A stretch of DNA of 64,000 bases from Thalassospira xiamenensis M-5 = DSM 17429 (GCF_000300235.2 NZ_CP004388.1:3666001-3730000), one strand, 5' to 3'. Shown: positions 54,973-60,586, counted from the first letter of the stretch. A program made the numbers and translations. The notes: generated by a model from the letters alone, not told the origin.

Positions 54973-57486
54973 GTGAAACATGGTCATAGAGCCATGCAGG
55001 GGTGTGGATTGGCGGAGGGTAGCCTGAAAACACAACGGCTCAGATGGCGTGACCGCTTGTCTGTCAAACAGGCACGTGCCGCTGTCGTTATCACCCTTCT
55101 GATTGGCCTGTTTTTCAGTGTCGTACAGATTGTCTGGGATCTTTATGAAGAACGCAGCCTGATTGACCGAACCGTTAATCAGGTTTTGTCGACGTTGCGC
55201 GAATCCGCAACACAGGCGGCCTATGGCCTTGACGAAACGCTTGCCGCACGCGTGGTGTCGGGCCTGTTTGAATATGAACCGGTTTACAGCGCGACGCTGC
55301 GCGACAATTTCGGAAATGTTCTGGCGCAAAAATCGCGTGCCCCCTCATCATCGGGGCGGTCCGCATTTAGCGAAGTGATGTTTGGCAACAACCAGCAATA
55401 TAACGTGCCGTTGCTGACCGGTGAAAGCCGTGATCTTGTCGGCCATCTGGTCGTTCGGATCGATACCGACTTGATTGCCGATGGTTTCATCAATCGCGCC
55501 ACCCGCATCCTGACGTCGGGCATTTTGCGCAACTTCCTGCTGGGGCTTGCGCTGGTGGCATTCTTTTACCTGACACTCACCAAACCGCTTTTGCGCATTT
55601 CACAGGCCGTCACCGGCATTGATCCAGACAGTCCCGATGCAACCGGGCTGACCGTTCCCCGTCATCATCAACGCGATGAACTGGGCCTTTTGTCTCGGTC
55701 CGTTGCCACACTGGTCGAAGGGATTGCATCAACACTTGGCAAATTGCGCCAGGCCGAACAGCAGATGCGTGATAACGAGTCCCGCCTGCGCGCGATTGTT
55801 CAGAACGTGGCCGATGGCATTCTGACCATCACGCCGAACGGCACCATTGTTGAGTTTAACAATGCATCCTATCCCCTGCTGGGCCTGAAAGAAGGTGAAA
55901 CACCAAAGGGACGGTCGCTTCTGGAATTTATCGCCCCGCGCGCCATTCCGAATTTCGAGGAAAGCCTTGCCGAGCTTTCGGGTCTGGACCTGCGTCATCA
56001 TATCGCAGAGCAGCGCCTGACGCTGCCGCTGGTACGGATGGACAAGACCGAGATCGAGGTAAGCGCCGCATTTCGCCCGATCCCCGATGCGCAAACACCG
56101 CTGATTACGGTTGTTCTTCACGATATCACCGCGCGCAAACGCTATGAGGAACAACTGGTCTATATGGCCAATCACGATGCGCTGACCAACCTGCCCAATC
56201 GCAGCATGCTGGAATACAGCCTTAAATCAGCACTTGAGAATCACAAACGTGATGCCGCGAGCCCGCATGACCGGGCAACCGCGATCCTGTTTATCGATCT
56301 GGACCGGTTCAAGCTGATCAATGACAGCCTTGGTCACAATGTCGGTGATTTGCTGCTTAAGGCCGTGGCGGACCGTTTGCGCCGGGTGATCAGCCGACAG
56401 GAAATCATCGGCCGACTGGGCGGGGACGAGTTCCTGATTATCATCCCGCGCCTGCGCGAAACACAGGATGCCGCCACACTTTCGCAGGCGGTTCTGGATG
56501 CGCTGGCCCCGGCCTTTGATATTCAGGGGCGGCACTTGTTCATCACACCGTCAATCGGCATCGCCCTTTGCCCGGCGGATGGCGATGATTTCCCGACCCT
56601 GATGCGCAATGCCGATACGGCGATGTATAGTGCAAAGGCCCGTGGCGGCGGGACCTATCACTTCTTTACCAAGACGATGAATGAAAGTGCGGTTGCGCGG
56701 CTTGCCATTGAAAATGACCTGCGCGAAGCCCTGAAAGAGGGACAGTTCGAACTTTATTACCAGCCAAAGATCGAACTGCTATCAGGCAAGCTTGCCGGGC
56801 TTGAGGCCTTGATCCGCTGGAACCAGCCGGGGCGTGGCTTTATATCACCAATGCAGTTCATCCCGGTGGCCGAGGAAACCGGACTGATTGGCAAGATCGG
56901 CGAATGGGTATTGCGCCGGGTCTGTGATCAGATCCGCGAATGGGATCTGCTGGGTCTGCCGCCGGTCAGCATTGCGGTCAATCTGTCCCCCAGACAATTG
57001 ATCGAAGGCCGGATCACAGAAACGATTTCCCGCATCCTTGATGAAACCGCAACACCGGCATCACGCATCGTTCTTGAAATCACTGAAACCGTGATGATGC
57101 ATGAAATCAAACGATCGGCATCAATCCTTGATGAATTGCGCAAGCTTGGCCTGCAGATCGCAATTGACGATTTCGGGACGGGTTATTCGTCGCTGGCCTA
57201 TCTGAAACGATTGCCGATCAATTCGATCAAGATCGACCGGTCGTTTGTCCGCGATGTGACGACCGATCCCGACGATGCGGCGATCACCAACACGATTATC
57301 ATCATGGGGCACAATCTTGGCCTGAAGGTGGTTGCAGAAGGGGTTGAAACACAGGAACAGCTTGAATTCCTTCGCGAACATGGCTGCGACGAAATCCAGG
57401 GCTTCCTGATTTCCGAACCACGACCGGCCAATATCACAGCCAGACAGATCGAACAGCTTTCGCGCACGGTTGCGTCTATTCTATAA
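54973..57486 (+). CDS. membrane GGDEF-EAL cyclic di-GMP protein with PAS domain
   Basis: Putative diguanylate cyclase/phosphodiesterase, 837 residues. TM1 lies at about 36-56, a periplasmic sensor region up to ~185, TM2 near 186-206, a linker/HAMP-like segment, a PAS domain about 265-395 (AIVQNVADGILTITPNGTIV), the GGDEF domain about 395-565 with GRLGGDEF (GGDEF at ~482-486, intact) and the EAL domain from ~575 with EAL at 611-613 and DDFGTGYSS. Both domains look active. The GTG start is uncertain (ATG 54994 possible). First gene of a signalling cluster with CheY-like, CheC-like and kinase genes. Confidence 0.92.
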   Translation: MKHGHRAMQGCGLAEGSLKTQRLRWRDRLSVKQARAAVVITLLIGLFFSVVQIVWDLYEERSLIDRTVNQVLSTLRESATQAAYGLDETLAARVVSGLFEYEPVYSATLRDNFGNVLAQKSRAPSSSGRSAFSEVMFGNNQQYNVPLLTGESRDLVGHLVVRIDTDLIADGFINRATRILTSGILRNFLLGLALVAFFYLTLTKPLLRISQAVTGIDPDSPDATGLTVPRHHQRDELGLLSRSVATLVEGIASTLGKLRQAEQQMRDNESRLRAIVQNVADGILTITPNGTIVEFNNASYPLLGLKEGETPKGRSLLEFIAPRAIPNFEESLAELSGLDLRHHIAEQRLTLPLVRMDKTEIEVSAAFRPIPDAQTPLITVVLHDITARKRYEEQLVYMANHDALTNLPNRSMLEYSLKSALENHKRDAASPHDRATAILFIDLDRFKLINDSLGHNVGDLLLKAVADRLRRVISRQEIIGRLGGDEFLIIIPRLRETQDAATLSQAVLDALAPAFDIQGRHLFITPSIGIALCPADGDDFPTLMRNADTAMYSAKARGGGTYHFFTKTMNESAVARLAIENDLREALKEGQFELYYQPKIELLSGKLAGLEALIRWNQPGRGFISPMQFIPVAEETGLIGKIGEWVLRRVCDQIREWDLLGLPPVSIAVNLSPRQLIEGRITETISRILDETATPASRIVLEITETVMMHEIKRSASILDELRKLGLQIAIDDFGTGYSSLAYLKRLPINSIKIDRSFVRDVTTDPDDAAITNTIIIMGHNLGLKVVAEGVETQEQLEFLREHGCDEIQGFLISEPRPANITARQIEQLSRTVASIL

Positions 57487-57551
57487 TCGGCCCTATCCTT
57501 GCGGATGATGCCTGATACAACAAGAACACAAACCGAAAATCAGAGAAAAAC

Positions 57552-57926
57552 ATGTCCCAGAATCGATCCGTCCTGCTTGTCGATGACAGCAAATTTGCCA
57601 GACTGCTGGTAAAGGCCTTTATCACCAGCAACTATGCCGACTGGCGGGTGGACGAGGCCGAAGAAGCCGAAAAAGCCCAGGCAATGGCCGCCGAGCATGC
57701 CTATGATTACCTTCTGATCGATTTCAACATGCCGGGCATGAACGGGCTCGAATTGGGGGAAAAGCTGCGCGCGGCTTATCCCGATGCTGCAATTGCGCTT
57801 CTGACAGCCAATATACAGAAGGAAATCCAGAACAAGGCCCACGGGCTTGGCATGGACTTTCTGGCAAAACCGCCAACCGAAGAAAAGATTTGCGATTATC
57901 TGAAGGGCAAGGAAGCCGGGCGATGA
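57552..57926 (+). CDS. CheY-like single-domain response regulator
   Basis: Stand-alone receiver, 124 residues. It has the acidic pair DD at 11-12, the phospho-acceptor D57 (LLIDFNMPGMNG), T84 in LLTAN and K106 in FLAKPP. No output domain is present, so it acts by protein binding. It overlaps the CheC-like gene by four bases (ATGA), so the two are translated together; the CheC-like protein is the likely phosphatase or partner. The kinase at 58564 is the likely phosphodonor. Confidence 0.92.
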   Translation: MSQNRSVLLVDDSKFARLLVKAFITSNYADWRVDEAEEAEKAQAMAAEHAYDYLLIDFNMPGMNGLELGEKLRAAYPDAAIALLTANIQKEIQNKAHGLGMDFLAKPPTEEKICDYLKGKEAGR

Positions 57927-58549
57927 TCGACCTTAGCGAGCTTGAACACGACACAATCAGCGAATTGATCAATATCGGGGTCGGCCGTGCTGCCGCGTCC
58001 CTGTCGGAAATGGTTGATCAGCCGGTGGAACTGACAGTTCCGACGATCACCTTTGTCGAAAGGTTTTCCGATTCAAACCTGACATCTTCGCCCGAAGAAG
58101 TGGTTTCCGCCGTCAGCCAGTCATTCGATGGCCCGTTCAAGGGCGAGGCGATGCTGGTTTTCCCGGAAAAGCGCAGCCTTGAACTGGTGCGGCGGTTGCT
58201 TAAGGTTGATGTGCCGCTCGATACCCTGACCGATCTTGAACAGGAAGCCCTGATGGAGGTCGGCAACATCATCCTCAATGCCTGCCTTGGCAGCATTGCC
58301 AACGTGCTGGGCGAGCCGATCAATTGTTCGATGCCGACATTTCGCAAACGCGAAACCCGTGCATTGTTAAATGAAGACACCGCATTTGATGCCGCGTCTG
58401 GCAAGATGCCGGTTCTGATGATCCTGCATGTGCAATTCATGCTGCGCCAGAACGATATTGATGGCTATGTGCTGTTTGTCATGGATCTTGACTCCATCCA
58501 AACCCTGAAGGAACTGGTACGACGCTTCCTTGAAAACGCACTTGGTTGA
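57923..58549 (+). CDS. CheC-like phosphatase
   Basis: CheC/CheX/FliY-type chemotaxis phosphatase family, 208 residues. Two active-site helices are present: the first has E14 and N17 in ISELINIGVGRAA, the second has E112 and N115 in LMEVGNIILNA. These are the residues that dephosphorylate CheY-P. AAGGAAG lies seven bases before the ATG at 57923; the longer frame from 57890 lies inside the receiver gene. Coupled to the CheY-like gene; no MCP, CheA or CheW gene is in the window. Confidence 0.88.
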   Translation: MIDLSELEHDTISELINIGVGRAAASLSEMVDQPVELTVPTITFVERFSDSNLTSSPEEVVSAVSQSFDGPFKGEAMLVFPEKRSLELVRRLLKVDVPLDTLTDLEQEALMEVGNIILNACLGSIANVLGEPINCSMPTFRKRETRALLNEDTAFDAASGKMPVLMILHVQFMLRQNDIDGYVLFVMDLDSIQTLKELVRRFLENALG

Positions 58550-58563
58550 CGGGCAGCGCCAAG

Positions 58564-60165
58564 ATGACAAACCCTACCCCCCCGATTGTCGATATCAAGA
58601 ATGCCGCCGAGGCCGCCGACCTATACAGCAATCTGCTTGATACTGCCGATGTCGGATTGGTGGTGATCGGGTCGGATCATGCCATCTGTCACTGGAACCA
58701 GTGGATGCAAAGCCGGTCGGGTATTCCGGCCGATCAGGCCATTGGCAAACGGCTGAGTGCGGTTTTCACCGAAACACGTTTGGGGCGGCTCTGCCAAGCA
58801 ATCAAGGATTGCCTGGAATTCGGCATGCCTGCGGTGATTTCGCCGTCACTTAATCAAGGTGCGCTGCCGCTTCGCCCATTGCCGCAATTTGCCGCAACAT
58901 TTGACCGCATGGAACAATCCATTCGCGTTCATCCGATTACGACATCGCGCGGCGAAAAGCTGTGTTCACTGACCGTGCGTGATGTGACCCTTGCCGTGCA
59001 GCGTGACCGGCTTTTGCGCCAACAGGCTGCCGAACTGGCCGACCTGGTCACCCAGACCCGACGTAGCGAGGACCGCACGCGCGCGATTTTGCAAAACACA
59101 ATTGATGCCATTCTGGTCGCATCTGATGACGGCAACATAGAACCGCTGAATGCCCGCGCACAGGAACTTTGCGGCCCGGAAGGCGACCCGGAACTCAGCA
59201 ACATTATCCGGTTTCTGCTGCCTGATAGCGAACATACCCCGCCACAACGCCCGACCGCCGACAGGTTACTGACCGATCTGGGGACCGGCGTGATCGAGGT
59301 TCTGGCATGCACCCCAAATGGCCGCAACGTGCCGCTTGAAGTTGCGATCAGTCATTTTTCGGCAGACGGGCGATATCATTACATCATCACGCTTCGCGAT
59401 ATTTCCCAGCGCAAACGCCATGAAATGGAAATCCAGCGCACCATGGCGGAACTGGAACGTTCCAACAGCGAACTTGAACAATTCGCCTATGCGGCGTCCC
59501 ACGATTTGCAGGAACCGCTTCGCATGGTGTCAAGCTATACACAGCTGATTGCGCGGCGATACAAGGATCAGCTTGACGAAACCGCAGATGAATTCATCCA
59601 TTATGCGGTTGATGGCACCCAGCGCATGCAGCGCATGATCGACGACCTTCTGACCCTGTCGCGGGTCGGACGGCATGGCAAACCGTTCAATGCGGTCCCC
59701 CTTGATAGTCTGTTTGATGCGATTGCCGCCAATTTCCGGCGCGCAGGCCTTGGTCCGGCGGGCAATATCGTGCGTGACGGGTTCCTGCCAACCGTAACCG
59801 GGGATGCCAGCCAGCTTTTGCTGCTGTTTCAGAATCTTGTTTCGAATGGCCTTAAATACAGCGACCCTGACAAGGGTGAAGTCCGGATTTATGCCACCGA
59901 AACCGATGAAAGCTGGAAGGTTTTCGTTGCCGATAACGGCATCGGGATCGAACCGCAATATCACGCGACAATCTTTGAAATCTTCAAACGCCTGCACGGT
60001 TATGGTGAATATGCCGGGACAGGGATCGGTCTTGCGATCTGCAAAAAGATCGTCGACCGGCATGGCGGAACGATTTCGGTAGAAAGTGAACCGGGCAAAG
60101 GCAGCACGTTCTGCGTTGAATTGCCGAAAGAATTGCCGATTGTGATCCCGCCAGAAAGCATGTAG
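58564..60165 (+). CDS. soluble PAS-domain sensor histidine kinase
   Basis: Cytoplasmic kinase, 533 residues, no membrane segment. PAS 1 spans about 20-145 (LLDTADVGLVVIGSDHAICH), PAS 2 about 175-285 (ILQNTIDAILVASDDGNIEP), HisKA has H313 in FAYAASHDLQEPLRM, and the ATPase domain has LVSNGLKYSD (N box), VADNGIGIEP (G1) and GTGIGLAICKK (G2). A DLQEP-type H-box is characteristic of the HisKA subgroup found with phytochromes and many soluble kinases. Follows the CheC-like gene after 15 bases and is the likely kinase of the CheY-like receiver. Start at ATG 58564; TTG 58546 possible. Confidence 0.92.
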   Translation: MTNPTPPIVDIKNAAEAADLYSNLLDTADVGLVVIGSDHAICHWNQWMQSRSGIPADQAIGKRLSAVFTETRLGRLCQAIKDCLEFGMPAVISPSLNQGALPLRPLPQFAATFDRMEQSIRVHPITTSRGEKLCSLTVRDVTLAVQRDRLLRQQAAELADLVTQTRRSEDRTRAILQNTIDAILVASDDGNIEPLNARAQELCGPEGDPELSNIIRFLLPDSEHTPPQRPTADRLLTDLGTGVIEVLACTPNGRNVPLEVAISHFSADGRYHYIITLRDISQRKRHEMEIQRTMAELERSNSELEQFAYAASHDLQEPLRMVSSYTQLIARRYKDQLDETADEFIHYAVDGTQRMQRMIDDLLTLSRVGRHGKPFNAVPLDSLFDAIAANFRRAGLGPAGNIVRDGFLPTVTGDASQLLLLFQNLVSNGLKYSDPDKGEVRIYATETDESWKVFVADNGIGIEPQYHATIFEIFKRLHGYGEYAGTGIGLAICKKIVDRHGGTISVESEPGKGSTFCVELPKELPIVIPPESM

Positions 60166-60202: not shown

Positions 60203-60586
60203 ATGAGCGACAATTATTCCATCACCGACCTTGCCCGCGAGTTCGACGTCACGACCCGTACCATCCGTTTTTACGAGGATCAGGAACTGATCGCCCCGGC
60301 CCGTCAGGGGCAGACCCGCATTTACAGCCATCGCGACCGGGTGCGCCTGCGCCTGATCATGCGGGGCAAGCGGCTTGGCTTTTCGCTTAAGGAAATCCGC
60401 GATCTGCTTGATCTCTATGACACCGACCGCAGCGAAATCATGCAGTTGACCATCCTTGTCGACAAGATCAATGAACGCCGCGACACGCTGCGCAAACAGC
60501 GTCAGGATATCGATGCGACACTTGATGAGCTCGATAAGCTTGAAGAAACCTGTCAGGAAGAATTGACCCGCAAATCGGGGAACTGA
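60203..60586 (+). CDS. MerR family regulator, LiuR-like
   Basis: DNA-distorting regulator, 127 residues. The N-terminal MerR winged helix (SITDLAREFDVTTRTIRFYE, then DQELIAPARQGQTRIYSHRD) is followed by a helical dimerisation coiled coil (LDLYDTDRSEIMQLTILVDK). There are no metal-binding cysteines, which fits the LiuR-type subgroup that controls branched-chain amino acid and acyl-CoA degradation. No liu genes are in the window, so targets are elsewhere. GGGA precedes the ATG. Confidence 0.88.
   Translation: MSDNYSITDLAREFDVTTRTIRFYEDQELIAPARQGQTRIYSHRDRVRLRLIMRGKRLGFSLKEIRDLLDLYDTDRSEIMQLTILVDKINERRDTLRKQRQDIDATLDELDKLEETCQEELTRKSGN

Follow-up and report, generated by a model that had tools for sequence, protein, structure and literature searches.

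CheC-type phosphatases and their closest described relatives

The active site of CheC follows the consensus D/S-x3-E-x2-N-x22-P, and Muff and Ordal reportedly proposed in 2008 that a 'class II' of CheC proteins acts outside chemotaxis. The CheC protein described here is encoded in a 64,000-nucleotide stretch of the genome of Thalassospira xiamenensis M-5 = DSM 17429 (NZ_CP004388.1:3666001-3730000; 'the window'). It resembles CheC of Bacillus subtilis and Thermotoga maritima, FliY and CheX in its fold, its two E-x2-N sites and the adjacency of a CheY-like receiver. For CheC, an established binding partner through which it acts is CheD (PMC3513319). Unlike CheD-linked chemotaxis CheC, the window protein has neither a CheD nor a link to che genes, and it is tied instead to PAS1, the first PAS domain of the kinase encoded downstream, and to outputs of the kinase or c-di-GMP type.

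In the available portion of PMC2222644, which lists PSPTO1039 for Pseudomonas syringae, response regulators that join a receiver to CheC are an established type, the 'CheC-like' class. According to the available portion of PMC5654926, the receiver-CheC protein Psyr_0886 was tried as a substrate of BphP1, and transfer was reported to another regulator. In this class (Psyr_0886) receiver and CheC form one protein, as in the fused cassettes described below, whereas Thalassospira has two overlapping genes, and the same portions of both papers give the protein without a PAS1 partner. In V. cholerae, VC1080-VC1087 is one predicted operon of receivers, sensor kinases, EAL and HD-GYP proteins (PMC4441509), and VC1084 and VC1085 are sensory-box kinases without known partners (PMC2709254). 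Ordinary PAS-HisKA two-component systems have kinase and receiver domains, and their adjacency, in common with the Thalassospira locus, but the cassette has a dedicated, separate phosphatase and an exchangeable output after PAS1. HmrABCX of Caulobacter, when compared, proved to be another kind of system. CheC-type phosphatases that work outside chemotaxis have been known before; the PAS1 link and the output swapping seem new, no description of the PAS1 partner or of its output swapping having been found in the openly searchable literature, although an earlier account may exist.

The Thalassospira locus

Four genes lie on the plus strand of the window and encode a GGDEF-EAL protein, a receiver, CheC and a PAS-PAS-HisKA kinase, all real and intact as judged by open reading frames, Pfam and motifs. 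A sequence-only reading of the window had described the same genes and domains, with an ATGA overlap, a kinase directly after CheC and a membrane GGDEF-EAL protein upstream, and each of these features was recovered. The GGDEF-EAL gene runs from 54973 (GTG) or 54994 (ATG) to 57486 (Pfam EAL 4e-80, GGDEF 1e-44). According to motifs and hydropathy, its product has a single strong hydrophobic segment, which is N-terminal, and intact GGDEF (~56419) and EAL (~56803) motifs, preceded by a PAS domain (~55783-56127). After a gap of 65 bp follows the single-domain receiver (57552-57926; PF00072, E=6e-21), with the phosphoacceptor D57 at 57720-57722. The receiver stop and the CheC start overlap in the sequence ATGA (57923-57926), and the CheC-type phosphatase (57923-58549) matches PF04509 and PF13690, both above cut-off. 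The histidine kinase (PAS-PAS-HisKA-HATPase by Pfam; 58564-60165) is soluble, without a transmembrane segment, and its best start is the ATG at 58564, 14 bp past the CheC stop. PAS1 (residues 16-155; 58609-59028) is supported by blastp to third genes and by the specificity tests given below, and HisKA plus HATPase, the exchangeable output part in Thalassospira, span 59473-60132 by Pfam, with H313 of HisKA at 59500-59502. The two-component parts are catalytically intact by motif, namely H313 and the HATPase in the kinase and D57 and K106 in the receiver.

CheC was found in 29 of the 29 Thalassospira genomes searched. Wherever a Thalassospira locus was read with sufficient flank (10 genomes and 18 named contigs, with species partly overlapping), the order is GGDEF-EAL, receiver, CheC, kinase; the synteny search suggested earlier thus found the four genes together, not scattered, in close relatives. 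Ten of these loci, read further, have divergent ferredoxin and CarD genes upstream and a MerR gene downstream. The upstream membrane GGDEF-EAL gene is absent from loci of other genera in the same order (L037-L039) and was rejected as a core partner outside Thalassospira, since it is absent there: it is a Thalassospira-specific neighbour and no core part.

The MerR-type regulator, the next gene after the kinase (60203-60586), is kept in 10 of 10 Thalassospira loci checked; among curated models it comes closest to those for zinc, mercury and lead responders, without reaching the cut-off of any. Within the locus, no RNA family was found, promoter and terminator scans gave matches at chance level, and the repeat scan was uninformative.

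Active sites of the receiver and CheC

The receiver carries D11/D12, D57, T85 and K106. Among 70 receiver homologues, D12, D57, K106 and R17 never vary, and Q89 (T+4) is conserved at 99%; by these counts, R17 and Q89 are family marks of these receivers. In CheC, site 1 (D10-x3-E14-x2-N17-x22-P40; 57950-58042) fits the consensus exactly, and site 2 (E108-x3-E112-x2-N115-x22-P138; 58244-58336) has the same pattern except for an E where the consensus opens with D/S. Both E-x2-N sites are therefore intact, as had been claimed, and each is followed by a proline after 22 residues. E14, N17 and P40 of site 1 are each conserved at 99% among 75 CheC homologues, and site 2 is looser in the same set (E112 80%, with D in 20%; N115 92%; P138 99%). 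The conserved residues of the two proteins argue for a catalytically active CheC and a phosphorylated receiver.

The predicted fold of CheC (AF2 model) matches Thermotoga CheC 1xkr with a TM of 0.82 and an E of 1e-15, and the sequence match to the same PDB entry is 6e-13; in the model, the fold is that of a CheC-type phosphatase. Against the NCBIfam equivalog CheC_Thtogales (NF041093), CheC scores 77 bits where the curated cut-off is 250, so it is not a member, and it has no match in PHROGs.

A receiver-CheC cassette with a variable third gene

A search with a CheC profile turned up relatives in 100 of the 397 Pseudomonadota genomes sampled (50 of 223 genera), as well as 80 loci from named genomes. 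The median gap between the receiver stop and the start of the CheC domain is 2 bp (118 receiver-CheC pairs), and the two form one open reading frame in at least 13 loci of gammaproteobacterial type, a label inferred from neighbours and named relatives.

The output of the third gene varies by lineage. Oxalobacteraceae have GGDEF, Magnetospirillum and other Rhodospirillales have GGDEF-EAL, and a HisKA kinase occurs in Thalassospira and in a second genus of its order; elsewhere there are hybrid kinases, some with Hpt, including a hybrid HK-REC-Hpt relay in the third-gene position at L190. In three genomes with a fused receiver-CheC (L195, L196, L199), the third gene consists of a PAS domain alone; the surroundings of these PAS1-only loci are unrelated, save for a hybrid kinase and an HD-GYP regulator beside L195. 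A kinase is absent from most homologous cassettes, the usual third gene being a GGDEF or GGDEF-EAL protein. Because most cassettes encode no kinase, transfer from kinase to receiver, which the sequence-only reading had placed at the core of the locus, is not supported as a general rule. A link to c-di-GMP, also proposed there, is likely because GGDEF or GGDEF-EAL is the usual third gene elsewhere, but the membrane protein through which it had been drawn does not belong to the core.

Several loci depart from this layout. Two have a tandem CheC pair between the receiver and a PAS1 hybrid kinase (L177:4264-5629, L178:5298-6838), the extra copies being divergent, and two have a second CheC after the kinase, which places CheC genes on both sides of it (L186:5565-8230, L188:5616-9097). 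Of the pair L106 and L132, the locus assigned to a 'Stygiobacter' MAG matches that of Magnetospirillum sulfuroxidans in layout and lengths (843-aa third gene), and the two are near neighbours in the CheC tree; it is probably a binning error.

Linkage of PAS1 and CheC

PAS1 of the kinase is the constant third component of the cassette. It matches the third gene by blastp in 90 loci, at an E of 2e-15 or better, whether the output is HK, GGDEF or GGDEF-EAL, and it lies at most 900 bp downstream of CheC in 127 of 136 CheC copies (133 loci). PAS1 is undetectable beside the other nine copies, one of them at a contig end (L173) and some with a downstream hybrid kinase that lacks it (L176, L188). The reverse test, from PAS1 to CheC in whole genomes, is the stronger of the two: in 40 whole genomes, all 38 full-length PAS1 domains adjoin CheC, 35 beside a CheC already in the profile survey and three in additionally fetched loci. 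One partial, weak PAS1 match (G403:C66) is not beside CheC, and one genome (G109) has CheC without PAS1. None of 15 CheC-less genomes has PAS1 at E 1e-6, though most hold tens of PAS-like candidates. Together, the 90-locus match and the two adjacency counts reject chance adjacency, and the linkage of PAS1 to CheC is near-exclusive.

The CheC tree (75 rows) requires no fewer than 16 changes of output class and the PAS1 tree (66 rows) no fewer than 17, both trees being of a quick kind with several long branches, so that their details are unsure. Path distances in the CheC tree correlate with those in the PAS1 tree (r=0.84; shuffle maximum 0.20) and in the receiver tree (0.76; shuffle maximum 0.18), partly owing to common species history. 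In the resulting picture, receiver, CheC and PAS1 are co-inherited, and the part after PAS1 has been exchanged repeatedly.

PAS1 domain structure

The AF2 model of PAS1 is a PAS fold (pLDDT 89.5), and the closest solved structure is 3mxq, a PAS domain from a sensory-box histidine kinase of V. cholerae. A PAS1 profile finds 3mxq in the PDB at E=1.6e-24, the next match reaching only 3e-4; 3mxq is a PAS1 domain, and it may be encoded in the VC1080-VC1087 operon. A solved PAS structure is hereby identified as a member of the receiver-CheC-PAS1 unit. Many fused-type loci carry the stretch W(E/Q)(Q/H)(R/Q)P(Y/H)-x-F-x4-RPITG in PAS1, and other groups have S-x-LN-x4-PL at this position (noted at L197, L200 and L193, L203); PAS1 therefore comprises at least two subtypes.

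Proposed mechanism and alternatives

We read the Thalassospira locus as a version of a widespread receiver-CheC-PAS1 cassette with exchangeable output, in which the phospho-receiver and CheC would control PAS1 and hence the output, and we give this reading slightly better than an even chance. A kinase would phosphorylate D57 of the receiver, CheC would hydrolyse this phosphate, and the receiver would dock on PAS1 of the third protein, directly or together with CheC, its phosphorylation state setting the activity of whatever PAS1 carries. In most lineages the output would be c-di-GMP, since a GGDEF or GGDEF-EAL part is attached to PAS1. In Thalassospira, the HisKA kinase would probably also charge the receiver, closing a kinase-receiver-phosphatase loop, and c-di-GMP would fall to the membrane GGDEF-EAL protein encoded alongside, the likely c-di-GMP arm.

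More tentatively, with somewhat less than even confidence, we suggest that PAS1 may be a dedicated dock for the phospho-receiver and CheC, and the trio a CheA-independent plug-in unit that drives diguanylate cyclases, phosphodiesterases or kinases with a fast reset of the chemotaxis type. Part of the chemotaxis apparatus thus seems to have turned into a general plug-in control unit. If this is true, CheC proteins outside chemotaxis gain a concrete job, and the cassette shows evolution rewiring a phosphorylation timer to c-di-GMP by a one-domain swap.

Adjacency and fusion indicate association and say nothing on the direction of control. The main alternative, which we think unlikely, reverses this direction: PAS1 would bind CheC and tune the phosphatase by ligand, in the manner of CheD, and the receiver would act elsewhere. 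It can draw on CheD as the binding partner of known CheC (PMC3513319), on the absence of CheD from this genome and on the loci in which PAS1 stands without an enzyme beside a receiver-CheC fusion, but leaves unexplained the enzymatic outputs fused to PAS1 in most loci. The kinase, cyclase and PAS-only versions of the cassette form a natural set for direct tests of the direction of control.

Equally doubtful to us is a conventional two-component pair: the kinase would phosphorylate the receiver, CheC would reset it, and the receiver would have the GGDEF-EAL protein or the flagellar motor as its target. Intact kinase and receiver genes close together, a four-gene set kept throughout Thalassospira, and the HK-REC-Hpt relay at the same place in some relatives all fit such a pair, a lone receiver being a natural acceptor; yet most homologous cassettes offer GGDEF, GGDEF-EAL or PAS only, without a kinase, and beyond Thalassospira the GGDEF-EAL gene falls outside the cassette.

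Chemotaxis genes elsewhere in the genome

The earlier statement that cheA and cheW are missing holds at the locus but not genome-wide, where a CheA-CheW-CheY-CheB-CheR operon lies at C1 ~803-810 kb, beside fliI and without cheC. The genome search returned three CheZ-family matches and no CheD, and the window CheC is the only copy of the CheC/CheX family in the genome. Gene content indicates that this is not a chemotaxis CheC, because the che operon lies elsewhere, CheZ is present three times, CheD is missing and the sole CheC is found here. It lacks the partnership with CheD in a che system that marks chemotaxis CheC, and its place beside a receiver, away from che genes, is that of class II. 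The near-invariant CheC active site, the lack of CheD and the presence of CheZ instead support, at the level of sequence, the earlier suggestion of an actively dephosphorylated receiver outside chemotaxis.

That CheC is the phosphatase of this organism's chemotaxis CheY, as the lack of any other CheC in the genome and of a cheC in the otherwise complete CheA/W/Y/B/R operon might suggest, is very improbable and was rejected, given that CheZ is present and CheD absent, that CheC overlaps its own receiver gene and that the receiver-CheC pairing recurs in genomes across the phylum. The CheZ-family matches lie at C1:3820580, C1:862866 and C1:3815483, a triplet in an alphaproteobacterium, and the match at C1:862866 contains an internal in-frame stop.
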